IMG/VR virus record: IMGVR_UViG_3300045999_009250
Coordinates: 62,001 to 126,000 of that record
Direction: 5' to 3' (one strand)
Origin: a virus
Length of the DNA stretch: 64,000 nt
The notes below the pieces were generated by a model. That model worked only from the letters and a program-made list of their open reading frames with translations, was not told where the DNA came from and did no database searches. Positions 17,887-39,941 of the stretch are shown here, piece after piece (positions within the stretch are counted from its first letter, which is position 1; every line of letters starts with the position of its first letter). A program made the position numbers and the translations under genes.

Positions 17887-18195
17887 ATGAAATTAGAAGC
17901 ATTATACAACGCAGTTATCGTTAAGCCATTTGAGGCTGAGGAAACAACTCACGGAAACATTATAGTTCCCGATTTAGGAAATGAAAAAAACAAACTAGGA
18001 AAAGTAGTAGCAGTAGGAGATGGATATTATTCAGTTACTGGTGCTTGGTTAGACACAATTTTAGAAGTAGGAAATATTGTTGTATTACCAACTATGGGAT
18101 TTACTAAATTAGAACACGAAGGTGAAGAATATTGGATTGGACCTGAAAATCAAGTATTAGCTCGTCTCAACAATGAAACAGAAGAAAAAATATAA
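17887..18195 (+). CDS. groES: GroES co-chaperonin
   Basis: 102 residues, normal GroES length. YNAVIVKPFEAEETTHGNIIVPD contains the mobile loop that caps GroEL; KLGKVVAVGDG and VGNIVVLP follow. Six bases upstream of groEL, the usual bacterial operon order. T4 encodes only the GroES substitute gp31; here a recognisable GroES is paired with its own GroEL. Confidence 0.93.
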   Translation: MKLEALYNAVIVKPFEAEETTHGNIIVPDLGNEKNKLGKVVAVGDGYYSVTGAWLDTILEVGNIVVLPTMGFTKLEHEGEEYWIGPENQVLARLNNETEEKI

Positions 18196-18200
18196 AAATC

Positions 18201-21835: not shown

Positions 21836-22050
21836 AAGAAGCAGTAAATAATCCAGCACACTACGGTGGAGCAGACAATCCTTATGAAGCAATCAAAGTT
21901 ATTGATGCTTGGGATTTAAATTTTAATTTAGGAAATACAGTTAAATATATTGCTCGTTGTGGTAAAAAAGATGATGAAATACAAGAGCTTGAGAAAGCAG
22001 CTTGGTATTTAAATAACGAGATTAAAAAAAGAAAATCTCGTAATGGATGA
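21832..22050 (+). CDS. DUF3310 family protein
   Basis: 72 residues. NPAHYGG...YEAIKVIDAW, GNTVKYIARCGKK and ELEKAAWYLNNEI are the DUF3310 (SaV-like) signature found in many phages. Molecular role not established; it lies among replication genes and overlaps both neighbours. Confidence 0.85.
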   Translation: MKEAVNNPAHYGGADNPYEAIKVIDAWDLNFNLGNTVKYIARCGKKDDEIQELEKAAWYLNNEIKKRKSRNG

Positions 22051-23056
22051 GGCATTAAGAGCTTATTATGGTTTTAGTACAGGAATAAAAGAAAAAAAAC
22101 CAAAAGCTAAAAAACTACCTTCTATTGTAAAGGAAATAAAAAAATATACTTTACAAACAATGGATTATTCTAAACAAAAATCCATTTCATATAGTCAAAT
22201 GTCTATGTTTACACATTGTCCACACAAATGGGCATTACAATACAAAGACGGACATTATACATCAGAGTCGTCTATAAACATGACTTTTGGTACTGCATTA
22301 CACGAAGCGCTTCAACATTATATTACCACTATATACGATAAAAGTGGCGCAGAAGCCGATAGAATTGAGTTAAATGAATACTTTGAAGAACGTTTAAGAG
22401 AAACATATAAAAAAGATGTTAAATCAAATAATAACGTTCATTTTTCAAATTCATTTGAATTAGCTGAATTTTATGAAGATGGAATTAAGATTCTTGAATA
22501 TATTAAAAAAAACAGAAATACACTTTTTAATAAAAAAGGTTGGTATTTAATTGGTTGTGAAGTTCCTATTTTAACAAACCCAAATCAAGAATATCCTAAC
22601 ATTTTATTTAAAGGATATTTAGATGTTGTTTTATATAATGAATTAACAGGTAAATTTTTAATATTAGATATAAAAACAAGTAAAACAGGTTGGAATGATG
22701 ATTCTAAAAAAGATGAAACTAAACAATTTCAATTAATACTTTATAAGTACTTTTTTTCAAAACAATTTAACGTTTCAATAGATAATATAGATATTAAATT
22801 TTTTATTGTAAAACGAAAAATAAACGAAGATGCTGAATTTGCAGCAGCTAAAAGAAGAGTACAAGAATTCATTCCTGCAAACGGAAAAGTAAAAGTAAAT
22901 AAAGCAACACAAGCTATGGATAAATTTATTAGTACTTGTTTTGAACAAAATGGTACTTACAAACAAATAAGTCATGAACCTATTCCTAGTCTATGGAATT
23001 GTCGATTTTGCCCATTTTCAGGTAAAAATGACTTGTGTTCAAAGGGATTAAAATAA
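22043..23056 (+). CDS. PD-(D/E)XK nuclease with Fe-S cluster (Cas4/RecB-like)
   Basis: 337 residues. SYSQMSMFTHCPHKWALQY opens the RecB/Cas4 nuclease fold; GTALHEAL near 83, GYLDVVL near 191 and ILDIKTSK near 208 give the active site (H, D, D-I-K). Cys60 plus WNCRFCPFSGKNDLC near the end provide four Cys for a 4Fe-4S cluster, as in AddB/Cas4. Likely an exonuclease for phage recombination or DNA processing. Confidence 0.87.
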   Translation: MDEALRAYYGFSTGIKEKKPKAKKLPSIVKEIKKYTLQTMDYSKQKSISYSQMSMFTHCPHKWALQYKDGHYTSESSINMTFGTALHEALQHYITTIYDKSGAEADRIELNEYFEERLRETYKKDVKSNNNVHFSNSFELAEFYEDGIKILEYIKKNRNTLFNKKGWYLIGCEVPILTNPNQEYPNILFKGYLDVVLYNELTGKFLILDIKTSKTGWNDDSKKDETKQFQLILYKYFFSKQFNVSIDNIDIKFFIVKRKINEDAEFAAAKRRVQEFIPANGKVKVNKATQAMDKFISTCFEQNGTYKQISHEPIPSLWNCRFCPFSGKNDLCSKGLK

Positions 23057-23122: not shown

Positions 23123-23314
23123 ATGAGTAAAAAAGACATGACACTAACCTCTGTGAAAATTCAGAGTGATTTGTTTGAACTCTTCAAGATAGAATGTGTT
23201 CGAATGAAATTTTCATTACAAAAATTAAACGATAGAGCAGTTCATTTATATTTGACCGATCCTGAGTTTAGAAAAATGATTCATTCTCATAGTAATTTAG
23301 ATACTACTGAGTAA
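23123..23314 (+). CDS. Possible ribbon-helix-helix regulator
   Basis: 63 residues. TSVKIQSDLFELFKIECVRM reads as a short strand followed by a helix and a second helix (SLQKLNDRAVHLYLTD), the order in Arc/MetJ-type DNA-binding dimers. Two CATATATTTATA sequences lie in the 65 bases upstream. It immediately precedes the glycan island and could regulate it; this is inference. Confidence 0.5.
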   Translation: MSKKDMTLTSVKIQSDLFELFKIECVRMKFSLQKLNDRAVHLYLTDPEFRKMIHSHSNLDTTE

Positions 23315-23364: not shown

Positions 23365-24798
23365 ATGATAAAAGAAAAATTCGGTTATTTAAAACCTGAC
23401 GAAAGAAAGAAAATACTCCTAATATGCGATGATATTCGTGTACATTCAGGAGTAGCAACAGTTACAAGAGAAATAGTATTTCACACAGCTCAACATTTTA
23501 ATTGGGTAAATTTAGGAGGAGCAATTAACCATCCTGAAGCCGGTAAACGTTTAGATTTATCTCAATCAATAAACGAGGCTACAGGTTTAACAGATTCTTC
23601 TGTATTTATGTATCCTGTAAATGATTATGGAACTCCAGATTTATTACGACATATAATAAAGATTGAAAAACCAGATGCTATAATGCTAGTTACTGATCCA
23701 CGTTATTTTATATGGTTGTTTAGTATGGAAAATGAAATTAGAAAACATATTCCAATTACTTATTTGAATATCTGGGATGATTATCCAGCACCTTTATATA
23801 ACAAACCATTTTATGAGGCTTGTGATTTATTAATGGGTATTTCAAAACAAACAGTTAACATTAACAAATTAGTTTTAGAAGAAAAAGCATCAGATAAAAT
23901 CATTAAATATGTACCTCATGGTTTAAATCATGAAATATTCAAACCTTTAGATAAAAATGATCCTGCTTTAATTGAATTTAAGAAAAGAATACTTAAAGGC
24001 AAAGAATATGATTTTGTGTTATTTTTTAACTCTAGAAATATTAGACGCAAACAAATCCCAGATACTATTTTAGCATACAGACATTTTATAGATAAATTAA
24101 CTGCTGAACAAGCTAAAAAATGTGCTTTTGTATTACATACTGAAAGAGTAAGTGAACATGGTACTGATTTAGATGCTGTTATTGAATTATTAGCTAATGG
24201 TGAAGAATACAATATTATCTTTACAGATGATAGATTTGACCCACACCAAATGAATTTGCTTTATAATTGTACAGATGCTCAAATTTTATTAACTTCAAAT
24301 GAAGGTTGGGGATTAAGTTTAACTGAAGCATTATTGACAGGTAAACCAATTATTGCTAACGTAACAGGTGGAATGCAAGACCAAATGAGATTTGAATTTG
24401 AAGATGGAACGTGGATTGATTTCACCCCAGATTTTCCTTCAAACCATAATGGAACTTACAAAAAACATGGTAAATGGGCATACCCAGTATACCCAACCAA
24501 TAAATCATTGGTAGGTTCACCAGTAACACCGTATATATGGGATGATAGATGTACAGCCGAGGACGCTGCTGAACAAATTATGAACGTTTATACAGACGAA
24601 AATCGTGTTGAAAACGGTTTAGCAGGTAGAGAATGGGCATTAAGCGATGAAGCCGGATTTACAGGTGAAAAACAAGGTATTAGAGTAATAAATGCATTTG
24701 ATGAATTATTTTCAACTTGGGAACCAAGAGAAAAATTCGAATTTATTAATACCAATGAAGTTAAGGATAGAAAAATAAACCATAAATTATTATACTAA
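23365..24798 (+). CDS. GT4-type glycosyltransferase
   Basis: 477 residues, GT-B fold. ILLICDDIRVHSGVATVT is the N-terminal acceptor domain start; the nucleotide-sugar domain has FFNSRNIRRKQIPD and the EX7E region TSNEGWGLSLTEALLTGKPIIAN, typical of GT4 enzymes. First gene of the glycan island; 4 bases before a second GT4. Donor and acceptor unknown. Confidence 0.87.
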   Translation: MIKEKFGYLKPDERKKILLICDDIRVHSGVATVTREIVFHTAQHFNWVNLGGAINHPEAGKRLDLSQSINEATGLTDSSVFMYPVNDYGTPDLLRHIIKIEKPDAIMLVTDPRYFIWLFSMENEIRKHIPITYLNIWDDYPAPLYNKPFYEACDLLMGISKQTVNINKLVLEEKASDKIIKYVPHGLNHEIFKPLDKNDPALIEFKKRILKGKEYDFVLFFNSRNIRRKQIPDTILAYRHFIDKLTAEQAKKCAFVLHTERVSEHGTDLDAVIELLANGEEYNIIFTDDRFDPHQMNLLYNCTDAQILLTSNEGWGLSLTEALLTGKPIIANVTGGMQDQMRFEFEDGTWIDFTPDFPSNHNGTYKKHGKWAYPVYPTNKSLVGSPVTPYIWDDRCTAEDAAEQIMNVYTDENRVENGLAGREWALSDEAGFTGEKQGIRVINAFDELFSTWEPREKFEFINTNEVKDRKINHKLLY

Positions 24799-24802
24799 AA
24801 AA

Positions 24803-26092
24803 ATGAACAAACCGTTATTTATAATTAGTTCTGCATTTGATACTTACAGTGGGTATGGTGCTAGAAGTCGTGATCTGATCAAAGCAATTATTGAAACAGA
24901 CAAATATGAGGTAAAACTATTATCTCAACGTTGGGGAAATACACCATTTGGTTTTTGTGAAGACAATTCTGAATGGGAATTTTTAAGTAAATTAGTATTA
25001 CCTAATAATCAATTACCTAAACAACCAGAAATTTGGATGCAAATTAGTGTTCCAAATGAATTCCAACCAGTAGGAAAATACAATATTGGTTGTACAGCAG
25101 GTATTGAAACAACAATATGTCCTCCTGATTTTGTAGAAGGTATAAATAGAATGGATCTAACATTAGTATCTTCAGAACATGCTAAAAAAGTATTCCAAGA
25201 TTCTAAATATGAAAAAAGAAATCAACAAACTAATCAATTAGAAGGAGTCGTTGAGTTAAATAAACCAATGGAGGTTTTATTTGAAGGTGCTAATTTAGAT
25301 GTTTATAAAGCAATTGATACACCTTGTTCTTTAGATATTAACATAAAAGAAAGTTTTGCTTACTTATTTGTAGGACATTGGATGCAAGGAGATCTTGGAG
25401 AAGATAGAAAAAACGTAGGTTTTTTAATTAAAGCATTTTATGAAACATTTAAAAACAAATCAAATAAACCAGCACTTATTTTAAAAACATCTCAAGTAGG
25501 TTCTTCATATGTTGATAGAGAAGAAATTTTGAAAAAAATTAAAATGATTAAAAAAACAGTTAATTCTACAAACCTACCAAACATTTATTTATTACATGGT
25601 GAATTCACTGATGTTGAAATGAATGAAATATATAATCATTCTAAAATAAAAGCTATGATTAATTTAACTAAAGGTGAAGGATTTGGAAGACCATTACTTG
25701 AATTTACTTTAAGCAAAAAACCATTAATTACAACAGGTTGGTCAGGACATTTAGATTTTTTAAATCCTGAATTTACTACTTTAATTGGAGGTAATTTAGC
25801 TAATGTTCACCCAAGTGCTGCTAATCAATTTATATTAAAAGAAGCACAATGGTTTTCACCAGATCCAGGTCAAATAGGTTTTTATTTAAAAGATGTATTT
25901 GAAAATTATAAAAACTATACTGATGGAGCTAAACGTCAATCACACTATAGTAAAACTAACTTTAGTTGGGATAAAATGAAAGAAAAAACAGATGAATTAT
26001 TTACTAAATATATTCCTGAATTTCCAAAACAAATAGAATTAAAATTACCTCAATTAAAAAAAATTGAATTACCAAAATTACAAAAAATATAA
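24803..26092 (+). CDS. GT4-like glycosyltransferase
   Basis: 429 residues, GT-B type. SAFDTYSGYGARSRDLIKA opens the fold; FVGHWMQG and the EX7E-like segment NLTKGEGFGRPLLEFTLSKKP identify the donor domain. Unlike the preceding enzyme it ends in a short Pro/Leu/Lys repeat (ELKLPQLKKIELPKLQK). Shares 1 base with the next gene. Confidence 0.8.
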   Translation: MNKPLFIISSAFDTYSGYGARSRDLIKAIIETDKYEVKLLSQRWGNTPFGFCEDNSEWEFLSKLVLPNNQLPKQPEIWMQISVPNEFQPVGKYNIGCTAGIETTICPPDFVEGINRMDLTLVSSEHAKKVFQDSKYEKRNQQTNQLEGVVELNKPMEVLFEGANLDVYKAIDTPCSLDINIKESFAYLFVGHWMQGDLGEDRKNVGFLIKAFYETFKNKSNKPALILKTSQVGSSYVDREEILKKIKMIKKTVNSTNLPNIYLLHGEFTDVEMNEIYNHSKIKAMINLTKGEGFGRPLLEFTLSKKPLITTGWSGHLDFLNPEFTTLIGGNLANVHPSAANQFILKEAQWFSPDPGQIGFYLKDVFENYKNYTDGAKRQSHYSKTNFSWDKMKEKTDELFTKYIPEFPKQIELKLPQLKKIELPKLQKI

Positions 26093-26556
26093 TGAATAAC
26101 GAACAAATGATAATATGCCCTAAATCAAAGGGCGATGCCTGTATGGTAACAGAAGCGACCCCAGGCATCAAAACATACTTTAGTTTTTCATGTGGTTTTC
26201 AAACAAATTCTTTAATGAAAGAAGGAGAAGATTTTTATGAAGAACAAATATCAATACTACCTGAATTATACAAAGATTTAACATGGAAAGATCCTGAAAC
26301 CGAATTGATGTGGATTCCAAGCATGGTAAATGAACCTACTAAAGGTATGATTTTTGCTAATGGTCCTTCTAAAGATAGTTGGGGATGGTCAGCTGTAAAA
26401 GCAGTACCAGTAACAGAAGCAGAAGCTGAAAAATACCCAATTCCAGGTAAAAAAGGTGAGTATTATAAATTGAGAATGGATATGACAACTATGAAAAATT
26501 TTTCTGAAAGAGAATACATAGATGCTTTATCTTATGTTGGCTTACTACCGGAATAA
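26092..26556 (+). CDS. Unknown protein at the end of the first glycan unit
   Basis: 154 residues. Several Cys near the start (CPKSKGDACM, FSCGF), then GMIFANGPSKDSWGWSAVKAVPVTEAE. No recognised domain. Its last codons hold the TTG of the next promoter. Confidence 0.65.
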   Translation: MNNEQMIICPKSKGDACMVTEATPGIKTYFSFSCGFQTNSLMKEGEDFYEEQISILPELYKDLTWKDPETELMWIPSMVNEPTKGMIFANGPSKDSWGWSAVKAVPVTEAEAEKYPIPGKKGEYYKLRMDMTTMKNFSEREYIDALSYVGLLPE

Positions 26557-26567
26557 TCGTATATTGG
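26537..26567 (+). promoter_or_regulatory. Promoter TTG-N20-TATATTGG for the main glycan operon
   Basis: TTG 26537-26539 inside the upstream coding end, TATATTGG 26560-26567; ATG 4 bases later. No further copy occurs until 35419, so it may drive all eleven genes to 35416. Confidence 0.6.
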
Positions 26568-26571
26568 CAGT

Positions 26572-27222
26572 ATGAAAATTAGTTATGCAATTACTGTCTG
26601 TAACGAACTAGAAGAAATAAAACAACTATTACCTTTTCTAATCGAAAATAAAAGAAAAGAAGATGAAATAGTTGTTTTTTTCGACTCAGTTAATGGTTCT
26701 CAAGAAGTAGAACAATATTTAAGAAGTATTGAACCTGGTTTGACCTATACCCCAATTGAAAATTATACTTTTAGATGGTATGGTTATGATTTTTATGGTG
26801 ATTTTTCTAATATGAAAAATGAACTTACTGAATTTTGTAAAGGTGATTATATATTCAATATAGATGCTGATGAAATGATTTCTAAAGATTTTATTGAGGT
26901 ATTACCTTTAATCATTGAAAATAATCCTGAAGTAGAATTTTATTGGGTCCCAAGAGAAAATTACGTAACAGGAATAACTCAAGAACATATTCAAAAATGG
27001 GGTTGGAAATTAGATAATTACAACAGAATAAATTACCCAGATTATCAAGGTCGTATTTACAAAAATGAACCTAATAGAATTATGTGGGTAAATAAGGTTC
27101 ATGAAAGAATTGTAGGATATAAACATTATTCAACATTACCTGATAACCAGGCTTTTTCAATAAACCATACAAAAACAATAGAAAAACAAGAAAAACAAAA
27201 CGAGTTTTATAATACAATATGA
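26572..27222 (+). CDS. GT2-family glycosyltransferase
   Basis: 216 residues, GT-A fold. ISYAITVCNELEEI start and the metal-binding FNIDADEMI (D-x-D) near 100; YWVPRENYVTG and WVNKVHERIVG match the WaaE/GT2-like group. Transfers a sugar from a nucleotide donor; specificity unknown. Four-base overlap with the next gene. Confidence 0.82.
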   Translation: MKISYAITVCNELEEIKQLLPFLIENKRKEDEIVVFFDSVNGSQEVEQYLRSIEPGLTYTPIENYTFRWYGYDFYGDFSNMKNELTEFCKGDYIFNIDADEMISKDFIEVLPLIIENNPEVEFYWVPRENYVTGITQEHIQKWGWKLDNYNRINYPDYQGRIYKNEPNRIMWVNKVHERIVGYKHYSTLPDNQAFSINHTKTIEKQEKQNEFYNTI

Positions 27223-28031
27223 AAATAAAAACATCCCATTTTGATAAAAAATTATTTGAAGATAAACTTCAACATTTATCCCATTTAGATTTTTCGTTAT
27301 TCGTAGAAACTCCTCCACAATCACAAGATGAATTATCAAACATAAACATTATTTCATTCCAAGAACCTAATGAGTATTTTGGTTTACATGATTGGACTAT
27401 CCAAAATAAAAATTTATTTGATGTTATACTAACACAAAGTGATAAAGTATTAAATAATTGTGACAATGCTACTTTCCAACCGTTTGGACATACTTGGTTA
27501 CAACCAGATCAATATAATAAAGAACATGATAAAAATTTTCAATTATCTCACTTATGTGGTAAATTATTAAAAACATATGGTCATTCTTTAAGACATGAAA
27601 CTTTAGCAAGACAAAATGAATTTAATATTCCTCTTAAATTTTATGATGTTTATGGAGATAGAAATAACATTGAAGATGCTCGTTTAGGTAAAGAATTTAT
27701 ATTTGGAGATTCACAATTTGGAGTAGTAATTGAAAATACTTCACGTAGAGGATATTTTACTGAAAAAATATTAGATTGTTTTTTACTTAAAACTATTCCA
27801 ATTTATTGGGGTTGTTCGAATATTGGGGATTTTTTTGATATAGACGGTATTATTACGTTTAATAACGTAGATGATTTAATATATATATCTAATAATTTAA
27901 CAGAAGATTATTATGAATCTAAAAAAGAAATTATAAATAAAAATTGGGAATTAGCTTTAAAGTTTGTACATTACGAACAAAATATAATAAATAAAATAGA
28001 AGAAATTTTTAAACACAACAATATAATATGA
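27219..28031 (+). CDS. GT10-like (fucosyltransferase family) glycosyltransferase
   Basis: 270 residues. VVIENTSRRGYFTEKILDCF and KTIPIYWGCSNI are the GT10 donor-binding signature (Y-x-TEK, then P-I-Y-x-G). Family members usually transfer fucose from GDP-fucose; here the sugar could instead be the deoxysugar made by the downstream genes. Overlaps genes on both sides by 4 bases. Confidence 0.78.
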   Translation: MKIKTSHFDKKLFEDKLQHLSHLDFSLFVETPPQSQDELSNINIISFQEPNEYFGLHDWTIQNKNLFDVILTQSDKVLNNCDNATFQPFGHTWLQPDQYNKEHDKNFQLSHLCGKLLKTYGHSLRHETLARQNEFNIPLKFYDVYGDRNNIEDARLGKEFIFGDSQFGVVIENTSRRGYFTEKILDCFLLKTIPIYWGCSNIGDFFDIDGIITFNNVDDLIYISNNLTEDYYESKKEIINKNWELALKFVHYEQNIINKIEEIFKHNNII

Positions 28032-29170
28032 AAAAAATATGGTACGCCCCCTATAAGTTTGAATCTTATGGAGAAGAAGAAATTAAAGCAGTAGAAGAAT
28101 CATTACGTTCAGGGTGGTTAGGTGGACAAGGTCCTAAATCTGTTGAATTTGAAGAAAAAATTGCTAAACGTTTCGGAAAAAAATATGGAGTGTTTGTAAA
28201 CTCAGGATCATCAGCTTGTTTATTAGCATTAGCTTGTTTACAATTACCAAAAGGAACCAAAGTTATTACACCAGCTTGTACATTTTCAACAACATTAGCT
28301 CCTATGATTCAATTAGGACTTAACCCAGTATTTGTAGATGTAGGATTAAACGATTACGTAGCTGACATCGATCAAATAATAGAAGCTATTACACCTGAAG
28401 TTAAAGTAATTATGTTACCTAATTTAATTGGTAACAAACCAGATTGGAAAAAACTAAAAAATGATATAAAATTTTTAGGTAGAAAAGATATTATATTAAT
28501 TGAAGATTCGGCAGATACTATTACTAATACTCCTGAGTCAGATATTGCTACTACAAGTTTTTATGCTTCTCATGTTATTACTGCTGGTGGTACAGGAGGT
28601 ATGGTGATGTTTAATGATAAAAAATTAGTAAATGTTTGTCTTCAATTTAGAGATTGGGGTCGTTTAGGTGGAGATTCTGAAATAATGTCTGATCGTTTTA
28701 ATCATATGGTTGATGATATTCCTTATGATCATAAATTTTTATATAGTGTTTTAGGATACAATTTTAAATCATCAGAAATGAATGCTGCTTTTGGTTTAGT
28801 TCAATTAAAACGATTTGAGAATTTTGAACAAATTAGAAGAAAAAATGTCGAGCGTTATATTGAAAATCTTAAAGATGTAAAAGAAATTTTATTACCTGAT
28901 GATTCTATCCACCCTAATTGGTTAGCTATTCCTTTACAAACAGAAAAAAGATATGAGTTACTTAATTTTTTAGAAGATAATAATATTCAAACTAGAGTAA
29001 CATTTGCTGGTAATGTAACTCGCCATCCTGCCTATAGAGAATATTTACAAGATTTTACAAACTCTGATATTATTATGAAAAATGGATTTTTATTAGGAGC
29101 ACATCATGGAATGACTGTTGGTGATGTGGATTATGTATGTGATAAAATTAAAGAATTTTTTAATAAATGA
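28028..29170 (+). CDS. DegT-fold sugar 3-dehydratase-like enzyme (ColD/RfbH type)
   Basis: 380 residues of the DegT/DnrJ/EryC1/StrS fold. FVNSGSSACLLALACL binds the cofactor phosphate and LIEDSAD the pyridine ring. The position of the PLP-binding Lys is His182 (SFYASHVITAGG), as in ColD and RfbH, which deoxygenate C3 of a hexose rather than transaminate. RDWGR and YDHKFLYSVLGYNFKSSEM also match RfbH, but the Fe-S Cys residues of RfbH are absent, closer to ColD. Predicts a 3-deoxysugar. Confidence 0.75.
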   Translation: MKKIWYAPYKFESYGEEEIKAVEESLRSGWLGGQGPKSVEFEEKIAKRFGKKYGVFVNSGSSACLLALACLQLPKGTKVITPACTFSTTLAPMIQLGLNPVFVDVGLNDYVADIDQIIEAITPEVKVIMLPNLIGNKPDWKKLKNDIKFLGRKDIILIEDSADTITNTPESDIATTSFYASHVITAGGTGGMVMFNDKKLVNVCLQFRDWGRLGGDSEIMSDRFNHMVDDIPYDHKFLYSVLGYNFKSSEMNAAFGLVQLKRFENFEQIRRKNVERYIENLKDVKEILLPDDSIHPNWLAIPLQTEKRYELLNFLEDNNIQTRVTFAGNVTRHPAYREYLQDFTNSDIIMKNGFLLGAHHGMTVGDVDYVCDKIKEFFNK

Positions 29171-29784
29171 TAGATTTAAAAAAACAAATAGTCAAAATTG
29201 CTTTTAAGCACAAATTAAGTCACTTAGGAAGTTACCTTTCTAGTGTTGATATAATAGATGAAATATATTCTAAAATGAATAAAGATGATATATTCATCCT
29301 ATCCTCAGGACATGCTTCATTAGCGATGTATGTTTGTATAGAAAAATATTTTGGTATTGATGCTGAAATGTTATTTTTAAAACATGGAGGTCACCCTCAT
29401 AGAGATGAAGAAAATAAGATTCATTGTTCAACAGGTAGTTTAGGTTTAGGTTTACCTATAGCATTAGGTAGAGCATTAGCTAATCCAAATAGAAAAGTAT
29501 GGGTATTAATTAGTGATGGTGAGGCAGCTGAAGGAAGTATTTGGGAATCACTTAAAACAATTCAAGAATTAAATATTAACAATATTGAGGTATTTGTTAA
29601 TATAAATGGATTGTGTGCTTATAAAGAAGTAGATATTGATTACATGTCAATAAGACTTAAATCATTTTTACCTCGAATTGAATTAAGATACACTACAGTA
29701 GAACAATATCCTTTTTTAAAGGGATTAAATGCTCACTACCATGTAATGTCAGAAGAAAATTATAATCAAGTTATAAACATATGA
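29167..29784 (+). CDS. Transketolase-like subunit, N-terminal (ThDP-binding) half
   Basis: 205 residues. SSGHASLAMYVCIEKYF, STGSLGLGLPIALGRAL and the ThDP/Mg motif SDGEAAEGSIWESL with a downstream Asn are those of the pyrophosphate-binding half of transketolase. The other half is the next gene (4-base overlap). Too short for a normal transketolase N-half (about 280). Probably moves a two-carbon unit onto a sugar in the island's pathway. Confidence 0.85.
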   Translation: MIDLKKQIVKIAFKHKLSHLGSYLSSVDIIDEIYSKMNKDDIFILSSGHASLAMYVCIEKYFGIDAEMLFLKHGGHPHRDEENKIHCSTGSLGLGLPIALGRALANPNRKVWVLISDGEAAEGSIWESLKTIQELNINNIEVFVNINGLCAYKEVDIDYMSIRLKSFLPRIELRYTTVEQYPFLKGLNAHYHVMSEENYNQVINI

Positions 29785-30257
29785 GAAAAGAATTCGCACA
29801 ACTATTACATACCGAAATGATTAATAATCCTGATATTTATTTAATCACAGGTGATCTAGGATATGGATTATGGGATAAAATCAAAAATGATTATCCTAAT
29901 AGATTTTACAATGTTGGATCTTCAGAAATGGCTATGATGGGAGCAGCTATTGGTTTAGCTATGGATGGAAAAATTCCATATGTTTACTCAATTACACCAT
30001 TTGCCATCTACAGACCATTTGAAATGATTAGAAATTATCTTGATCACGAAAATATCCCAGTAAATATTGTTGGAGGAGGTAGAGATAGAGATTATAGTTA
30101 TTTAGGATTTTCACACTGGTCACACGATGATAGAAGAATAATGGGTGTTTTTGATAATGTAAAATCATTTTGGCCTGAAGATGAAGATGAATTGCTAAAT
30201 AGTTTTCAATTTTCACTTACAAAACAATCACCTACTTATATAAATCTTAAACGATGA
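29781..30257 (+). CDS. Transketolase-like subunit, pyrimidine-binding half
   Basis: 158 residues. LITGDLGYG and NVGSSEMAMMGAAIGLAMDG (catalytic Glu that activates ThDP) match the Pyr domain; GGGRDRDYSYLGFSHWSHDD follows. The usual third transketolase domain is missing, so the pair is a minimal split enzyme. Overlaps both neighbours by 4 bases. Confidence 0.83.
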   Translation: MRKEFAQLLHTEMINNPDIYLITGDLGYGLWDKIKNDYPNRFYNVGSSEMAMMGAAIGLAMDGKIPYVYSITPFAIYRPFEMIRNYLDHENIPVNIVGGGRDRDYSYLGFSHWSHDDRRIMGVFDNVKSFWPEDEDELLNSFQFSLTKQSPTYINLKR

Positions 30258-31033
30258 ATGTATTAATAACAGGTGGAAATGGTTATGTTGCTAAAAGTCT
30301 TTATAATGCTTTAAAAGAAAAATATAATATAACTTTAATTACAAGAAAAAATTTTGATTTAACAGATTCATTTGAAACTCTTAAATTTTTTTCTAATAAA
30401 TATTTTGATATTGTAATCCATACTGCGGCTGTTGGTGGTAGTAGACTCAAACCAGAAAACTCGTCTACTATGGATCAAAATCTTCAAATGTATTATAATT
30501 TATTATCATGTAAAAACAAATACAATAAATTTATATATTTTGGTTCAGGAGCAGAAATATATAACCCTGAATCACCATATGGTTTAAGTAAAAGAGTAAT
30601 TGCTAAATCAACATCAGAAATTGAAAATTTTTATAATATAAGAATATTTGGTGTGTTTGATGAAAATGAATTAGATACTAGATTTATAAAAACATGTATT
30701 AGAAAATATATTAATAAAGAACCAATGTTGGTACAAGATAAAAAAATGTCCTTCTTCTATATGCAAGATTTAATTACATTAGTAGATCATCATATTCAAA
30801 CCCCCTCAAGTTCTTTATTAAAAGAAAGTAATTGTGCTTATCTTAACTCAACTTCATTAATAGATATAGCTAATATTATAAATGAACTAGATGATTATAA
30901 AGTTCCAATTTATATAGATACACAAGTAGGAAAAGATTATGAATCAAAATATAATGCTCCGTATTTACTAAAATATATTGGATTAAATCAAGGAATTATA
31001 AAAACATATAATAAATTAAAAAATGAATATTAA
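30254..31033 (+). CDS. NAD-dependent sugar epimerase/reductase (extended SDR)
   Basis: 259 residues. Rossmann motif ITGGNGYVAKSL (GxxGxxx), VIHTAAVGG, and catalytic YGLSK (YxxxK). Resembles GDP-fucose synthase-type epimerase/reductases, though shorter (usual about 310). Probably finishes the nucleotide deoxysugar made by the two previous steps. Overlaps the next gene by 11 bases. Confidence 0.83.
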   Translation: MNVLITGGNGYVAKSLYNALKEKYNITLITRKNFDLTDSFETLKFFSNKYFDIVIHTAAVGGSRLKPENSSTMDQNLQMYYNLLSCKNKYNKFIYFGSGAEIYNPESPYGLSKRVIAKSTSEIENFYNIRIFGVFDENELDTRFIKTCIRKYINKEPMLVQDKKMSFFYMQDLITLVDHHIQTPSSSLLKESNCAYLNSTSLIDIANIINELDDYKVPIYIDTQVGKDYESKYNAPYLLKYIGLNQGIIKTYNKLKNEY

Positions 31034-31964
31034 AATAACGCTCCATATAATGCCATGGGATATAGATTGTGCATTATTAGTTTTTGATAAATTAAAACAA
31101 TCTTCTTATTTTATTAGTAATGAAGATAAAATTTATATTGATTCTTTTTTAAATTTATCTCACGACATTATTGATTGGGATAATTCTTCATTTCCAAAAG
31201 AATATTTTATAAAAAAATATCAAATATTAGATGATCTAGTTAAAAATGTTTTTATCCATAAACCATTTATATATGACAAAGAAGGAATTTATGGTCATTT
31301 AGATTCCCAAAAAACCATAATTGAACCATTTATTGATTATTACATAGGATTATGTCCTGATGTTGAATTTCAAGAACATCTTCTTTATTATTTAATAGAA
31401 TCAGCAAAACAAATAAAAAATGAATATTTTGTTTTAACTCCTCAAATTTTTAAGAGTTGGGATTCAAGTTGGGATATTTTAGTAAATGATAAATTTCAAG
31501 ACATCCCTTACAATCAATGTTATAATATTGATATTCATAAAATAAGACATGACTGTTTAGAATTAGACACTCCTACACTTAAACTTTCTCCTGGTTTTAA
31601 ATTTGCTGGTTGGCTTGATTTGTATAGTAAAAATTTTTATGAAAAATTAATACCTACTTTAGATGAATGGAAAGGATATGGTCCTTGGGATTTATATGCT
31701 ATGAATGTATGTAATATTGCAAAATCTAAAGGAGTAGATGTTGAACAATATATTTTAGAAAACCAAGTAATATGGTTTAAAGATGTAGGTTGTTGGCAAA
31801 ATGAAGAAGAACATGCGGGTCATGGAAAAATAAGATTAATTTATAAAGATTTTTTAACAATAAAACTTGGAAGACAAGAACAAAGATCGTATATTGATAC
31901 AAATATTATTCATTATTTAAACCAATGGATAGAATATGCTAAAAATAATAATATAATTAAATAA
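31023..31964 (+). CDS. Unknown protein of the glycan operon, possibly glycosyltransferase
   Basis: 313 residues, aromatic- and acid-rich. The central segments NEYFVLTPQIFKSWDSSW and LKLSPGFKFAGWLDLYSKNFY look like GT-A folds that check a ruler strand, but I see no clear D-x-D, so function stays open. Position among sugar genes suggests a role in the same pathway. Confidence 0.6.
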   Translation: MNIKITLHIMPWDIDCALLVFDKLKQSSYFISNEDKIYIDSFLNLSHDIIDWDNSSFPKEYFIKKYQILDDLVKNVFIHKPFIYDKEGIYGHLDSQKTIIEPFIDYYIGLCPDVEFQEHLLYYLIESAKQIKNEYFVLTPQIFKSWDSSWDILVNDKFQDIPYNQCYNIDIHKIRHDCLELDTPTLKLSPGFKFAGWLDLYSKNFYEKLIPTLDEWKGYGPWDLYAMNVCNIAKSKGVDVEQYILENQVIWFKDVGCWQNEEEHAGHGKIRLIYKDFLTIKLGRQEQRSYIDTNIIHYLNQWIEYAKNNNIIK

Positions 31965-31967
31965 AAA

Positions 31968-32666
31968 ATGATAAAAACAATAACAACTTATGAAGATCTA
32001 GTTCAAGATCTTATTGACAACAAAATTACAATGGTTAGACCAGATGAATTTAAAACTATATTTAAACATTATCCTAAAATACAACAAGTAGAAGGAGATG
32101 TAGTAGAATGTGGTGTTTGGAGAGGAGGTTTTTCAATATTTCTTAGTTATATATTCCAGGATAAAAACATTTGGGTTTGTGATTCATATGAAGGTTTTCA
32201 ACCACCTGAAATAGCTAAACATCAATATGATAAAGAAAGACATACTCATCTTGTTACTCACAACGCTGTAGGTCCATTAGCTATTAGTCTTGAAGAAGTT
32301 CAATTACATTTTAAAACATATGGTTTAGGTGAAGAAGAAAGAATTAAATTCTTAAAAGGATTTGTTAAAGATACTTTACCAACATCAGGAATTGAAAAAG
32401 TTTCATTATTAAGAATAGACGTAGATGCTTATTCTGCTACATTAGAAACATTAGAGGAATTATATGATAAAGTACAACCTGGAGGATATATAATATTTGA
32501 TGATTCTTGTTTATATGAAACTTTAGATGCTATTAAAACATTTTTTAAACAAAGAAATATAGAAGAATATATTTTACACCCTGTTACTGATGAAAAATTA
32601 TCATTAAATGCTCAACACACAAATGATGATTCAGGTTTTCCCGCAGGTTGTTATATTATAAAATAA
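31968..32666 (+). CDS. TylF/MycF-type O-methyltransferase
   Basis: 232 residues. GDVVECGVWRGGFSIF binds SAM; WVCDSYEGF, LRIDVDAYSATLETLEELYD and GGYIIFDDS are TylF-family signatures (metal-binding Asp pair). Such enzymes methylate sugar hydroxyls. Starts 3 bases after the preceding gene. Confidence 0.85.
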   Translation: MIKTITTYEDLVQDLIDNKITMVRPDEFKTIFKHYPKIQQVEGDVVECGVWRGGFSIFLSYIFQDKNIWVCDSYEGFQPPEIAKHQYDKERHTHLVTHNAVGPLAISLEEVQLHFKTYGLGEEERIKFLKGFVKDTLPTSGIEKVSLLRIDVDAYSATLETLEELYDKVQPGGYIIFDDSCLYETLDAIKTFFKQRNIEEYILHPVTDEKLSLNAQHTNDDSGFPAGCYIIK

Positions 32667-32673
32667 ATAAAAT

Positions 32674-33405
32674 ATGAAAAAAACATTAACTCAAATTGCA
32701 AATGCAGTTGTTTCCCAAAATGGGGAATCAAATGGGATTGATAAAGGAACAATTAAGAATTCATGTCATGGGTTTACAAAAGCATATGATAATATATTAA
32801 CTCCTTTAAGAGAAAAACCTATTCTTATGTTAGAAATAGGAGTATCGGGAGGGGGTTCCCTTAAAATGTGGGAAGAATATTTCACAGATGTTACAATTAT
32901 TGCTCTAGACATTGTTGATGAGACTCATCTATCAAATAATAAAACTTTTGTTTATCAATTAGATCAATCTAATGAAACTCAATTACAGAATTTTGTAAAT
33001 CAATGTAACGAAAATGGATATGAATTTGATTTTATTATTGATGATGGAAGTCATCATATGAGAGACCAACAATTAACATTAGCTTATTTATTTCCATTAC
33101 TAAAACCTCAAGGAATATACATTATAGAAGATCTTCATACATCTTTACTTCCTAATGGTTACCCAATATATGGAAAACTTATAGAAATTCACCCAAACAG
33201 ACATAATACTACATTAAATTATCTTTCTCATGGTATAGATAGCATTTATATTACGGCAGAACAAAATAAATATTTAAATGAAAATATTGATTATATCAAT
33301 ATACATAATATATTTAATCCTATTATAGATACATGGCATGAATCTTTAGGTGTAGGAAAACCATATAAAGGAAGAAGCATAACATCATTCATATTTAAAA
33401 AATAA
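32674..33405 (+). CDS. Class I methyltransferase (MycE-like)
   Basis: 243 residues. ILMLEIGVSGGGSLKMWEEYF is the SAM-binding start, FIIDDGSHHMRDQQLTLAYL a metal/catalytic segment, and GIYIIEDLHTS follows, as in MycE-like sugar O-methyltransferases. Second methyltransferase in the row. Confidence 0.8.
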   Translation: MKKTLTQIANAVVSQNGESNGIDKGTIKNSCHGFTKAYDNILTPLREKPILMLEIGVSGGGSLKMWEEYFTDVTIIALDIVDETHLSNNKTFVYQLDQSNETQLQNFVNQCNENGYEFDFIIDDGSHHMRDQQLTLAYLFPLLKPQGIYIIEDLHTSLLPNGYPIYGKLIEIHPNRHNTTLNYLSHGIDSIYITAEQNKYLNENIDYINIHNIFNPIIDTWHESLGVGKPYKGRSITSFIFKK

Positions 33406-33408
33406 AAA

Positions 33409-33990
33409 ATGAAAATAATTCAAATCGGGGCTAATAATGGAAAAGATAACGTTTTTGATTTCATTAAAGAAAATCAAAAATCACTAGAGTTAGCAATATT
33501 GATAGAACCTATACCTTTTATTATCAATGAATTAAAAGATCAGTATAAAGATATAAATAATATTGTAGTAGAAAATATAGCTATAACTAATGAAGAAAAT
33601 CTTGAACAAATGACTCTATATTATTTAGGAGATAGTAATTATGAAGTAAGTTCATTTAGTAAACATCATGTAATAACCCATAAACCTCCAGGTTCATCAT
33701 TTCCATTAGAATCATTAGAAGTTTCTTGTTTAACTATTAATAAGATTATGAATAAATATGATTTAGAAATAATAGATTATTTATTTATAGATACTGAAGG
33801 ATTAGATGTTCATATAATAGCTAGTATTGATTTTACAAAGTATAAAATTAAAAATATTATATTTGAAGCTGTTCATACTGATGGTGCATTTAGTAAAGGT
33901 GAAAATTTTAATAAAATATGTAATTATTTAAATCAATTAGGATATAATTTATCAAATATAGACCAATTAAACATAAAAGCTAGTTTATGA
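33409..33990 (+). CDS. FkbM-family methyltransferase
   Basis: 193 residues. IIQIGANNGKDNVFDF binds SAM; DYLFIDTEGLDVHIIASIDF is the FkbM hallmark. Short for the family (about 230-280) but with both signatures. Third methyltransferase; overlaps the next gene by 4 bases. Confidence 0.83.
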   Translation: MKIIQIGANNGKDNVFDFIKENQKSLELAILIEPIPFIINELKDQYKDINNIVVENIAITNEENLEQMTLYYLGDSNYEVSSFSKHHVITHKPPGSSFPLESLEVSCLTINKIMNKYDLEIIDYLFIDTEGLDVHIIASIDFTKYKIKNIIFEAVHTDGAFSKGENFNKICNYLNQLGYNLSNIDQLNIKASL

Positions 33991-34667
33991 AAATAATATA
34001 TAGAATATCAGACGCAGGTTACAATAAAGTAAAACCTGACTATATTAACAATGAAAATTGTTTAAGGAATTTCGTTCATGTGTTTGGTAATCAAAATTTA
34101 GAAATTATAGCAGATAACTGTAGTGAAGAAACACTACGTATGATTACTAAATATGTACATCCAAATAAAATACAAAATGTATCTATTGGACATGGAGCAG
34201 GAACATTTAATCTAGCTTTAGATAAAGCATTAGAATATGATGATGAAACAATAGTTTATTTTGTAGAGAATGATTACCTTCATAGAGAAAAATCACCAGA
34301 AGTTTTAGTTGAAGGATTACAATTAGGATATGATTATGTTTCTTTGTATGATCATCCTGATAAGTATATTAACGGAGCAAATCCATTTGTAGAAGATGGT
34401 GGGGAGGTAACAAGACTAATGCTAACAAATTCTTGTCATTGGAAGTTAACAAACTCTACAACTATGACATTTGCTGCTAGAGTAAGTACTTTAAAACAAG
34501 ATGAAGCAATCCTAAGAGATTTTACATCAGGAACACACCCCAACGACTTTCCAATGTTCTTAGCTTTAAGAGAAAAGCAACATGGATTAGTAACACCAGT
34601 ACCAGGATACTCTACACACGGAGAAACAGCTTGGTTAACACCTTTAACAGATTGGAGTAAGATATGA
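33987..34667 (+). CDS. Probable glycosyltransferase
   Basis: 226 residues. IYRISDAGYNK start, IGHGAGTFNLALDKALEY and YFVENDYLHREKSPEV (E-N-D in the place of D-x-D) fit a GT-A enzyme acting like GT2. C-terminal SGTHPNDFPMF and STHGETAWLTP resemble acceptor loops. Overlaps the neighbours by 4 bases. Confidence 0.65.
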   Translation: MKIIYRISDAGYNKVKPDYINNENCLRNFVHVFGNQNLEIIADNCSEETLRMITKYVHPNKIQNVSIGHGAGTFNLALDKALEYDDETIVYFVENDYLHREKSPEVLVEGLQLGYDYVSLYDHPDKYINGANPFVEDGGEVTRLMLTNSCHWKLTNSTTMTFAARVSTLKQDEAILRDFTSGTHPNDFPMFLALREKQHGLVTPVPGYSTHGETAWLTPLTDWSKI

Positions 34668-35416
34668 TAAGCGTAATTATACCAACATATAAGTCACCAG
34701 AGGCTTTGGATCTATGCTTACGTTCAGCAATTAAGGGTCAACAAAACGAAAATCAAATCATAGTGGTTATAGATGGCTTCTATGATATTAATAAAGAGGT
34801 ACTGGAAAAGTATGCTAATGATATTGAAATATTAGTTTTAGAAGAAAACGCAGGATTGTGTAGAGGTACTAATTTAGGAGTTTACAATGCTGAGTATGAT
34901 AAAATTCTTATTGTAAACGATGATAATGTATTTCCAATAGACTGGGACGTTCAACTTGAAAAAGTATATAATCCTCATTTTGTTATATCACCTAATCAAA
35001 TAGAACCAAACCCAAGTATGTTTAGACAATTTCATATTAGAGATTGTGGTCGTGATCCTAAAACATTTAGTTTAGAAAATTTTAATTTATATGAAGAACC
35101 ATTAAGAGGAAATCCAGATGATATGACCGGTTCTACATTACCTATATTAATGTCTAAAAAGATGTTTTTAAGTGTTGGTGGTTGGGATGAAAATTATCAA
35201 GACGGAATGGTAGCTGATTGGGATTTCTTTTTAAAATGCCAACTTATAGGATTAAAAATGATGAGAACATATAATTGTCATTTTTATCACTTTGCCTCTG
35301 TTTCTGTAAATGGAGAAAAAAGAAGACAAGCCGAATTAAATGGATATGAATATTCTAAATACAAGTGGGGTGATTATATAAAACACAATCCTGAAGATAA
35401 TTTGAAATATATTTAA
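34664..35416 (+). CDS. GT2-family glycosyltransferase
   Basis: 250 residues. Canonical GT2 start ISVIIPTYKSPEALDLCLRS, ENAGLCRGTNLGV, metal site VNDDNVFP and WDENYQDGMVADWDFF with the catalytic acidic ED-like region. Last gene of the glycan island; a new promoter begins 3 bases after its stop. Confidence 0.9.
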   Translation: MISVIIPTYKSPEALDLCLRSAIKGQQNENQIIVVIDGFYDINKEVLEKYANDIEILVLEENAGLCRGTNLGVYNAEYDKILIVNDDNVFPIDWDVQLEKVYNPHFVISPNQIEPNPSMFRQFHIRDCGRDPKTFSLENFNLYEEPLRGNPDDMTGSTLPILMSKKMFLSVGGWDENYQDGMVADWDFFLKCQLIGLKMMRTYNCHFYHFASVSVNGEKRRQAELNGYEYSKYKWGDYIKHNPEDNLKYI

Positions 35417-35453: not shown

Positions 35454-35612
35454 ATGATATTTGGATTTTATAATAGAACAGATGAAACACAGGAGATTAT
35501 TAATCGTACTGTATCCACATCAAGATTAAATGCTGCTAAACATTTCGCAGAACGCAAACAACTTCCACTAAAAGAATTTTTAAAAATATTTGCTGTTAAA
35601 TGTTTAATATAA
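35454..35612 (+). CDS. 52-residue protein of unknown function
   Basis: A short frame starting 4 bases after the promoter: MIFGFYNRTDETQEIINRT, then SRLNAAKHFAERKQLPLKEF. It overlaps the next gene by 13 bases. The residues ARLNAAKHFAERK-type helix suggests a small nucleic-acid or phage-protein binder, without a family match. Confidence 0.55.
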   Translation: MIFGFYNRTDETQEIINRTVSTSRLNAAKHFAERKQLPLKEFLKIFAVKCLI

Positions 35613-36004
35613 GTAGCTTCGGAAAAAATTTAATCATTAAAGATAAAAATAAAATAATTACTAGCGATAAACAAACGTTTATTGATTTAGTTGACACTTT
35701 TAGTATGGCCCACCAACGTTCTTTGTCAGTTGAAAAAGAACATGGTTTAAAATTAGAAAAATATGATGGATTATTTTTTGTAATAATTGAAAATTTATTT
35801 TTTACCCATTATGGTGAATGGCAGGGTGAATTAATTTTATGGTATGTGTATGATAGAACAGATGAAGATGGTAATTTATATCCTATGATGCTTTTTGATG
35901 AAGAAACAGGAGATGAAACTGAAGTAGTGATTGAAAATGCTAGTGAATTATATTCATTTATCCAAAAAATTGCTAAAAAAATAAAAAATAAAAAGAAAAA
36001 ATAA
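35600..36004 (+). CDS. Unknown protein
   Basis: 134 residues: strand-rich centre (YDGLFFVIIENLFF, GELILWYVYDRTDEDG) and a very basic end (KKIKNKKKK). Starts inside the previous gene. No known family recognised. Confidence 0.6.
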   Translation: MFNISSFGKNLIIKDKNKIITSDKQTFIDLVDTFSMAHQRSLSVEKEHGLKLEKYDGLFFVIIENLFFTHYGEWQGELILWYVYDRTDEDGNLYPMMLFDEETGDETEVVIENASELYSFIQKIAKKIKNKKKK

Positions 36005-36016
36005 ATATTTACGGTT

Positions 36017-36274
36017 ATGACAAAATGTATTCACTGTGGAGAAGAAATCCACCCAAAACGATTAGAAATCCTTCCTTCAGCTAAAACATGTGTATCATGT
36101 TCTACTACAGAAAAAAAAGGAGGATTAACAATAATGAAAGGTACTGGTGACCATACTTGGATTGAAACAATCCCTATGGAACAAGAAGACTATCAAAAAA
36201 TACTTAAAGCAGAAAATAAAACATTTAATACATCATTTGATAATCTAGAACCAGAATTTAGTTCTGAGGTTTAA
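36017..36274 (+). CDS. C4 zinc-finger protein (DksA/TraR-like finger)
   Basis: 85 residues. CIHCGEEIHPKRLEILPSAKTCVSC spans positions 4-28 in the C-x2-C-x17ff-x-C-x2-C layout of DksA/TraR fingers (RL..P...C..C). The rest is polar. TraR/DksA proteins bind RNA polymerase; a comparable host takeover role is possible but unproven, as the coiled coil is absent. Confidence 0.6.
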   Translation: MTKCIHCGEEIHPKRLEILPSAKTCVSCSTTEKKGGLTIMKGTGDHTWIETIPMEQEDYQKILKAENKTFNTSFDNLEPEFSSEV

Positions 36275-36277
36275 TTT

Positions 36278-36928
36278 ATGCCCAAAGCAAAACCATTAAA
36301 AAAAGAAGAAATCATAGCGGCAATGGCTAAAACCAAATCCGTTCGTTCTGCTTGCCGTTACTTAAATTGTTCATACCAACACTTAAAAAAATGGATGAAA
36401 TTTTATGAAGGTGAAGATGGTAAATCTTTGTTTGAACAACATAAAAATCCTGCAGGTAAAGGTATTCCTAAGTTTACTAATAATTCACCATGGAAACGAA
36501 AAGAACCTGCTATATTAGATATTGTTGAAGGTAGAGTAGATCCATCTCATTTAAACCCTCAAAAAGTTAAATATAAACTTATAGAAGCGGGTTATTTAAA
36601 AGAGGAATGTAGTACGTGTGGTTTTCATGAACGACGCGTTATAGACTATAAAATGCCGTTAATTATGCATTTTAAGAATGGTAACAAACAACATTACACT
36701 CTTAATAATCTTCAAATGCTTTGTTATAATTGTTATTTTCTTTATGTAAATAGTATTTTTACTGAAAAAGAAATCGAAAACATGGAAGATCATGTTCCGC
36801 GTAATGGAAGTAAAGATATCCCTGAAAAATTACAAATTGATGAATATACTCAGAAAAGATTAGATGAATTAGGAATATTTGGTAAAGACGATACAGAAGA
36901 TCCTTATAATTTAGTATCTTACAAATAA
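36278..36928 (+). CDS. HTH plus degenerate HNH/zinc-finger protein
   Basis: 216 residues. An N-terminal helix-turn-helix (SVRSACRYLNCSYQHLKKWM) and a C-terminal ECSTCGF..MHFKNGNK..NLQMLCYNCYF that follows the zinc-framed HNH layout, but the last HNH His is replaced (CYNCYF). Either a variant nuclease or a DNA-binding regulator derived from one. Confidence 0.6.
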   Translation: MPKAKPLKKEEIIAAMAKTKSVRSACRYLNCSYQHLKKWMKFYEGEDGKSLFEQHKNPAGKGIPKFTNNSPWKRKEPAILDIVEGRVDPSHLNPQKVKYKLIEAGYLKEECSTCGFHERRVIDYKMPLIMHFKNGNKQHYTLNNLQMLCYNCYFLYVNSIFTEKEIENMEDHVPRNGSKDIPEKLQIDEYTQKRLDELGIFGKDDTEDPYNLVSYK

Positions 36929-39136: not shown

Positions 39137-39185
39137 TCTACTTAAAAACAGGTGTATTACTTATTTTTTATAATATGTATTATTG

Positions 39186-39941
39186 ATGAAAACAAATATA
39201 TATTATCTATGTAGAGAAGATAAAGTTCCATTTTATGTAGGAAAAGCTAATAACTTAAAAATTAGAGAAAACCAACATAAATTAAAATTAGGGAAAAACA
39301 TTATTTTAGAAGCAATAGATGAAATACCAACAAATGAATGGAAATTTTGGGAAAAACATTATATTTCTTTATTTAAAAGTTGGGGTTTTATTTTAGTAAA
39401 TAAAAATGAAGGTGGTGGAGGAGAATTATATAGATCCGAAGAAACTAAACAAAAATTAAGAAAACCTAACCCAAAAGCAGGTAGAAGAGGTCCATTAAAT
39501 CAAGAAATAAAAAATAAAATAAGTAAATCAAAAACAGGAAAACATCATACTGAAGAAACAAAATTAAAAATATCAAACTCAAATAAAGGAAAATTGGTTT
39601 CACAGGAAACATTAGATAAAAAAAGAAAGGCAATGGTTGGTAAAAAATTTACTGAGGAAACTAAATTAAAGATGAGTATGTCTTCAAAAGGTAAAACTAA
39701 ATCTCTACTTCATAAAGAAAAAATAAAAATACATCTTGATAATATTAAAGATAAAATAAGAAAAGCAAAGAGTAAACCTGTTTTACAATATGATTTAGAA
39801 GATAATTTTATTAAAGAATGGAATAGTATGACTGAAGTAAGTAATACTCTAAAAGAAATAAAAACATCAGGGATAAGTCGTTGTATATGTGGTAATCAAA
39901 ATTATTATAAAGGATTTATATGGAAAATAAAAATAATTTAA
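39186..39941 (+). CDS. GIY-YIG homing endonuclease
   Basis: 251 residues from the ATG at 39186. NIYYLCREDKVPFYVGKANN is the GIY-YIG start; GGGGELYRSEETKQKLR begins a series of NUMOD3 repeats (five or so KISKSKTGK-like units) before the C-terminal NUMOD1 module (VLQYDLEDNFIKEWNSM..FIWKIK). The most repeat-rich of the set. Unlike three relatives its 3' end shows no TTG-N20 promoter. Confidence 0.88.
   Translation: MKTNIYYLCREDKVPFYVGKANNLKIRENQHKLKLGKNIILEAIDEIPTNEWKFWEKHYISLFKSWGFILVNKNEGGGGELYRSEETKQKLRKPNPKAGRRGPLNQEIKNKISKSKTGKHHTEETKLKISNSNKGKLVSQETLDKKRKAMVGKKFTEETKLKMSMSSKGKTKSLLHKEKIKIHLDNIKDKIRKAKSKPVLQYDLEDNFIKEWNSMTEVSNTLKEIKTSGISRCICGNQNYYKGFIWKIKII

Follow-up and report, generated by a model that had tools for sequence, protein, structure and literature searches.

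What does a phage make with a long, compact row of glycan-synthesis genes, and which surface carries the product? The question is raised by an island at positions 23365-35416 of a 64,000-nucleotide stretch of phage DNA (the window), which corresponds to bases 62001-126000 of the 171,684-base virus record IMGVR_UViG_3300045999_009250. A preliminary description had regarded this region as a glycan-synthesis island, a view that its gene content supports. On balance, we favor the interpretation that it is a polymorphic, serotype-like glycan locus, in which a fixed core is joined to an exchanged cassette that determines the sugar, with a branched dideoxysugar as the product and the virion as the acceptor. 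According to this model, the fixed core (GT4a, GT4b, sm154, and GT2a) would start a glycan on a conserved acceptor, the cassette lying between GT2a and the right border would decide which sugars complete it, and the finished glycan would change the phage (or cell) surface that is recognized.

Fifteen + strand genes, each adjoining or overlapping the next, make up the island. Among their predicted products are at least seven glycosyltransferases (GTs), three methyltransferases, a split transketolase, an enzyme of the DegT fold, and an epimerase/reductase. Every gene named in the preliminary description was found where it had been placed, and two genes had been left unnamed (26092-26556, 154 aa, and 31023-31964, 313 aa); the 4-base overlaps said to prevail do exist, at half of the gene junctions (7/14). 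Ratios of nonsynonymous to synonymous substitution rates (dN/dS) of 0.07-0.33 against relatives denote purifying selection on the island genes, and these open reading frames (ORFs) are therefore real genes and not chance ORFs. A scan for sigma-70 promoters and terminators gave no excess over shuffled sequences. The locus was compared across 82 viral loci, namely the best 80 of 577 IMG/VR matches to GT4b plus Flavobacterium phage immuto and a Microcystis phage; counts of loci are rough, since the set was chosen by GT4b similarity to the window and includes many partial contigs. The island and its borders, with the support for each gene (pLDDT, predicted local distance difference test; ThDP, thiamine diphosphate; PLP, pyridoxal phosphate), are as follows:

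22043..23056, + strand: PD-(D/E)XK nuclease-like gene, left border of the conserved core (Pfam PDDEXK_1; 82/82 viral loci)
23123..23314, + strand: conserved gene of 63 aa, left border (81/82 loci, median identity 72%)
23365..24798, + strand: GT4a glycosyltransferase, fixed core (Pfam Glycos_transf_1; 82/82 loci, median 71%)
24803..26092, + strand: GT4b glycosyltransferase, fixed core (Glyco_trans_1_4, phrog_2170; 577 IMG/VR matches)
26092..26556, + strand: sm154, core protein of 154 aa (no Pfam match; AlphaFold pLDDT 94; 78 loci)
26572..27222, + strand: GT2a glycosyltransferase, boundary between core and cassette (Pfam GT2; swap breakpoints inside)
27219..28031, + strand: GT10-like (fucosyltransferase-like) glycosyltransferase, cassette (best PDB match an alpha1,3-fucosyltransferase, E 8e-8)
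28028..29170, + strand: probable DegT-fold sugar 3-dehydratase, ColD/RfbH type (RfbH model 276 bits; His182 at the PLP-lysine site)
29167..29784, + strand: tktN, ThDP-binding half of the split mini-transketolase (Pfam Transketolase_N; PDB 6yak best)
29781..30257, + strand: tktC, pyrimidine-binding half of the split mini-transketolase (Pfam Transket_pyr; PDB 6yaj best)
30254..31033, + strand: epim, NAD-dependent epimerase/reductase, after the ThDP enzyme (Pfam Epimerase)
31023..31964, + strand: u313, GT-A-fold glycosyltransferase of 313 aa (AlphaFold pLDDT 90; Foldseek GT-A E 6e-7, prob 1.00)
31968..32666, + strand: TylF-type methyltransferase (PF05711, 154 bits)
32674..33405, + strand: Methyltransf_24-like methyltransferase, MT24 (phrog_21658)
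33409..33990, + strand: FkbM-type methyltransferase (PF05050, 69 bits)
33987..34667, + strand: u226, probable glycosyltransferase (no Pfam match; function from context alone)
34664..35416, + strand: GT2b glycosyltransferase, last cassette gene (Pfam GT2, 55 bits)
35454..35612, + strand: conserved ORF of 52 aa, start of the right border (cluster c25, directly after the cassette in 17 loci)
35600..36928, + strand: right border, consisting of g35600, g36017, and an HTH-HNH endonuclease gene at 36278-36928 (HNH, HTH_28)

The genes from PDDEXK to GT2a were present in 71-82 of the 82 loci, nearly always in the same order, and the cassette genes in 2-26; the right border genes occurred in 20-22 loci, i.e., those that reach far enough. 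PDDEXK, GT4a, GT4b, sm154, and GT2a constitute a fixed core, and the rest up to the right border, the last two thirds of the island, is an exchangeable cassette. In the core, locus L008 matches the window at 87-93% nucleotide identity up to position 26680, beyond which the two are unrelated; L100 is 65-70% identical in the core and 80% identical in the cassette, over 27161 to 35391. Both swap breakpoints, near 26680 and 27161, thus lie within GT2a. Synonymous divergence (dS) from L100 amounts to 0.31-0.75 for u313, tktN, and the methyltransferases versus 1.07-1.46 for the core, the remaining cassette genes being intermediate or matching the core values. Where two loci have GT4b genes 85-95% identical, they have on average 19% of their cassette families in common, and 8 of 19 such pairs share none; 99 of the 165 cassette families recorded across 50 loci occur once. 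The identity profiles, the dS values, and the pattern of shared genes together indicate that cassettes are exchanged between related phages, like the genes for bacterial surface-coat serotypes. The HTH-HNH gene at the right border could drive this exchange. The transketolase module is also found in L104, L105, L106, and L111, near-identical phage contigs (tallied separately, as such contigs were throughout) that lack the GT4a core, which was not found anywhere in the full-length L104 and L105 records; the module therefore travels on its own.

Several further observations concern individual genes of the locus. A structure search with the sm154 model returned no PDB match with E ≤ 0.001, and one phage homologue was found in BFVD; this protein may possess a new fold tied to the glycan core. 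Cys9, Cys17, and Cys34 of sm154 are invariant. The GT10-like gene scores below the Pfam cut-off (19 versus 23.9 bits), and homologues of u226 in other loci stand nearly always immediately 5' of GT2b-like genes. A separate module, comprising an APS-kinase-like kinase, a cytidylyltransferase-like protein, and a DUF2061 protein, is present in the cassettes of L019, L025, L030, L043, and L046. Beyond the right border, the window carries a GIY-YIG/NUMOD endonuclease gene (39183-39941).

Which sugar the cassette might produce can be approached through the DegT-fold protein. Its best family match is the RfbH model (276 bits, under the curated cut-off of 423), and its best PDB matches are cytidine diphosphate (CDP)-4-keto-6-deoxyglucose-3-dehydrase and ColD. 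His182, in the motif SFYASHVIT, stands where aminotransferases have the PLP lysine, and a histidine occupies this site in 23/23 aligned cassette members. Because of this replacement an aminotransferase role was rejected and the protein is read as a sugar 3-dehydratase of the ColD/RfbH type. The Fe-S cysteines of the RfbH/E1 subgroup are lacking, as the E1 segment CAPGCDNTC aligns to a cysteine-free stretch of the protein, whose cysteines lie only at 64, 70, 84, 204, and 371; it therefore fits ColD better than the E1 type.

The next two genes, tktN and tktC, contain the expected catalytic residues when aligned to PDB 6yak/6yaj, and D117-G-E and N145/N147 (the ThDP motif), E49 (the catalytic Glu), and H112 (the active-site His) are invariant across 16 phage transketolase sequences. 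The halves measure 205 + 158 aa in the window, and across the examined loci tktN has 203-215 aa and tktC 156-160 aa; in all of these, tktC stops after the pyrimidine domain and no third (C-terminal) transketolase domain was found. The order tktN-tktC-epim holds in 20/20 contigs and is usually preceded by DegT and/or a 4,6-dehydratase. Loci L043 and L046 have backbones about 90% identical and DegT genes alike to the stop codon, after which L046 carries one JanthE-like gene exactly in place of tktN-tktC, followed by epim. The best PDB match of this gene product is JanthE, a YerE-like enzyme (PMC12188165), with 556 bits versus 242 for acetolactate synthase, the next family. By sequence, the YerE-like enzymes, which belong to sister cassettes and not to the window, are nearer to YerE-like enzymes than to acetolactate synthases; epim directly follows them in L046, L079 (the same contig as L113), L114, and L115. 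Three classes of ThDP enzyme thus adjoin the 3-dehydratase in these cassettes, i.e., transketolase, YerE-like, and split E1 alpha/beta. They correspond to the three classes that a review names as makers of C-branched sugars, namely YerE-like enzymes, dehydrogenase-type enzymes, and, as a proposal, split transketolases (PMC12247030).

The closest cellular relatives of tktN occur in Patescibacteria, Omnitrophota, and Actinomarina genomes (38-54%). Genes of RfbH-like, CDP-glucose 4,6-dehydratase, and glucose-1-phosphate cytidylyltransferase-like type are found in the vicinity of some of the nearest bacterial mini-transketolases. Loci L116-L119, from metagenome-assembled genomes (MAGs) labelled Alphaproteobacteria, Thaumarchaeota, and Maricaulis, encode mini-transketolases 62-65% identical to that of the window on short, dense glycan contigs, which are probably viral DNA in these bins. 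In an Omnitrophica MAG locus (L136), relatives of the YerE-like enzyme and the epimerase coexist with a mini-transketolase pair, so that both classes are found in a cellular locus.

The product is most likely a methylated, C-branched 3,6-dideoxysugar, and branching at C4 is the simplest account of the enzymes predicted. The preliminary description had proposed one methylated deoxysugar; this outline holds and is here sharpened to a probable C-branched 3,6-dideoxysugar. In the proposed pathway, the host would supply a nucleoside diphosphate (NDP)-4-keto-6-deoxyhexose, for which many sister cassettes encode their own 4,6-dehydratase. The DegT-fold dehydratase would remove its C3 hydroxyl, the split mini-transketolase would add a two-carbon unit to the C4 ketone to give the C-branched 3,6-dideoxysugar, and the epimerase/reductase would reduce the side-chain ketone. 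GT10, u313, u226, and GT2b would transfer the branched sugar and other sugars, and TylF, MT24, and FkbM would methylate. The yersiniose A pathway of the Yersinia pseudotuberculosis O-antigen follows the same logical order, with a 4,6-dehydratase, a 3-dehydrase, YerE, and a reductase (PMC12247030), and sister cassettes share with the yersiniose A and JanthE systems an enzyme that best matches JanthE (PMC12188165). The window differs in having a split transketolase in place of YerE, a phage setting, no flippase or polymerase, and a dehydratase without the E1-type Fe-S cysteines. Split-gene transketolases are likewise encoded by the miharamycin and amipurimycin clusters, where they have been proposed to place a hydroxyacetyl branch on a keto sugar (PMC12247030); that route is unproved and belongs to Streptomyces secondary metabolism, whereas the phage halves are short (205 + 158 aa).

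In its backbone the phage resembles Flavobacterium phage immuto, with identities of 53% for the capsid, 59% for the terminase, 60% for the tail tube, and 61% for GroEL, a relatedness that covers the shared head, tail, and replication backbone and makes the window phage a distant relative, with no claim to the same genus. Cyanophage P-SSM2, offered earlier for comparison, is not the closest, since the same locus occupies the same genomic place in immuto and in hundreds of IMG/VR contigs. In immuto (vB_FspM_immuto_2-6A, Immutovirus, gp184-gp164), PDDEXK, the small gene, GT4a (57%), GT4b (59%), sm154 (39%), and GT2a (52%) are followed by a variable block and then by HNH (45%). The immuto block between the borders is unrelated to the window cassette: its DegT-fold protein is a different one (23% identity), its methyltransferases and GTs are others, and it has no transketolase. 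Start sites without Shine-Dalgarno motifs and with A-rich upstream bases are usual in Bacteroidota. A Shine-Dalgarno-like motif was present at 0/26 start sites checked in the window, and the bases upstream are A-rich; the host is therefore likely a member of the Bacteroidota, and the family probably one of large T4-like phages mainly of this phylum. A nucleotide search with the island against a phage collection gave no match, and relatives were identified at the protein level. Phage-encoded GroES/GroEL genes, kept in most relatives, lie left of the island at 17887-19811, and the GT4a homologue of Microcystis phage Mel-JY01 (L003, 16507-17998) is split into two ORFs. An origin from the host O-antigen locus, which the preliminary description had suggested judging by comparison, is not supported for GT4b or the mini-transketolase, the two genes examined: a search of 200 genomes from the family to which a Flavobacteriaceae MAG belongs gave no close homologue of either, save on the MAG's own contig, which itself looks viral.

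Membrane topology bears on the acceptor. At least two transmembrane (TM) segments were predicted in 0/677 phage cassette ORFs (2 at a cut-off of 1.6) versus 65/256 in bacterial transketolase loci, a comparison made with a simple predictor and with flanking genes included in the bacterial loci; no TM segment was predicted in any island protein. Neither a Wzx/Wzy-type flippase nor a polymerase was found in the island, and no multi-TM protein among the 677 sister ORFs. In bacterial transketolase loci, a GT with two or three TM segments often follows tktC (of the ArnC/PgfS type in L128). The membrane flippase GtrA and the TM-anchored GtrB of Gtr serotype conversion have no counterpart in the island, where GT2b matches the GtrB phrog only weakly, in the catalytic part and without TM segments. 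Given the lack of polytopic membrane proteins, the glycan is probably built on a cytoplasmic acceptor. Homologues of the core GT4s are kept in phages of hosts as unlike as Flavobacterium and Microcystis and are nearly absent from host-type genomes, which moderately favors a phage-encoded acceptor. On these sequence grounds, cytoplasmic glycosylation of a phage virion protein is the most likely reading.

Four points weigh against this interpretation of sugar and acceptor. With no 4,6-dehydratase in the window cassette, the substrate must come from the host; the domain with which ordinary transketolases end is missing from the mini-transketolase; sugar branching by split transketolases has only been proposed, for 13 sequences, all from streptomycetes (PMC12247030); and the missing polytopic proteins are compatible with a host-surface acceptor served by a host flippase and ligase. 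It is conceivable, though unlikely, that the split transketolase, instead of branching a sugar, supplies a pentose or heptose phosphate building block, the cassette product then being colitose or another ordinary methylated 3,6-dideoxysugar. Loci L021, L026, L034, and L037 have the same 3-dehydratase and a ColC-like reductase with no ThDP enzyme, a set expected to yield an unbranched dideoxysugar. However, tktN-tktC sit exactly between the 3-dehydratase and the reductase, a YerE-like enzyme substitutes for them there in L046, and three classes of ThDP enzyme co-occur with the 3-dehydratase.

Rather doubtful, if less so, is modification of the host surface (lipopolysaccharide, capsule, or glycolipid), which would block superinfection or the trapping of progeny on debris, the enzymes adding sugars to cytoplasmic lipid-linked precursors that host machinery exports. 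Phage GT islands are commonly read as host-surface modifiers, as in the pelagimyophage host recognition cluster (PMC7029224). O-antigens typically contain dideoxy and branched sugars (PMC12247030), and bacterial relatives of the mini-transketolase adjoin ArnC/PgfS-like undecaprenyl-phosphate GTs. Against this, no initiating transferase, polyprenyl-phosphate GT, or ligase was seen in the island, in addition to the missing flippase, polymerase, and multi-TM ORFs; homologues of the core GT4 pair are shared by phages of Flavobacterium and Microcystis, hosts that differ in their surface glycans; and the 200 host-type genomes contain essentially no GT4b. Decoration of phage DNA, e.g., on a modified base that protects against restriction, appears very improbable. 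DNA glycosylation by phage GTs has precedents (cited in PMC12619734), and the genome encodes a probable 7-deazaguanine DNA modification pathway, predicted from these window genes:

4772-5563: DpdA-like (35% to the immuto gene, no Pfam match)
5832-6734: QueC
8016-8483: QueD
8480-9262: QueE-like radical SAM
11985-12662: GTP cyclohydrolase I (FolE)

Yet neither DpdA nor QueD accompanies GT4a in the complete genome of Microcystis phage Mel-JY01 or in the contig of L012 (166 kb), so that relatives possess the glycan core in the absence of this pathway and the DNA decoration suggested earlier is unlikely to proceed through it. Of a hydroxymethylated-base pathway, as in T4-type DNA glucosylation, only a thymidylate synthase homologue was found; it resembles ordinary ThyA, and no dCMP hydroxymethylase was seen. 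Escape from restriction, moreover, would not need serotype-like turnover of the outer sugars. The thymidylate synthase (44832-46001, 389 aa) spreads the 264-position Pfam model over about 380 residues, roughly 100 extra, and that of immuto is similarly long.

A serotype-like locus with a virion acceptor has partial counterparts in other phages. Virion-glycosylating mycobacteriophages carry few GTs and are not known to have a dedicated sugar-synthesis cassette. Like the window phage, they encode their own GTs; in their case the targets are virion proteins (Freeman 2023, cited in PMC12619734). The pelagimyophage host recognition cluster is likewise a large, hypervariable phage island with GTs (PMC7029224); it lies among tail-fibre genes, whereas the window island, with its fixed borders and constant GT core, lies among replication genes. 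Taken singly, islands of phage GTs, glycosylated virions, and branched sugars are already known. A limited search of the open-access literature found neither a phage serotype-like branched-sugar locus with three exchangeable enzyme classes nor a report of a virus making such a branched deoxysugar.

Phage glycosyltransferase islands are usually recorded as auxiliary genes of unclear use. With its fixed borders, fixed core, and exchanged cassette, the island described here is built like a bacterial serotype locus, which suggests diversifying selection on the sugar itself. As a tentative generalization, phages of this family may make C-branched deoxysugars through three interchangeable classes of ThDP enzyme and wear them on the virion as swappable "phage serotypes", encoded by interchangeable cassettes behind the constant GT core. 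The role of split transketolases beside keto-sugar dehydratases is an open question in the review literature (PMC12247030), and the exchange of transketolase and YerE-like genes at one position represents a natural experiment on it. The cultured relative immuto, which grows on Flavobacterium LMO8, puts the question of the acceptor within direct experimental reach.

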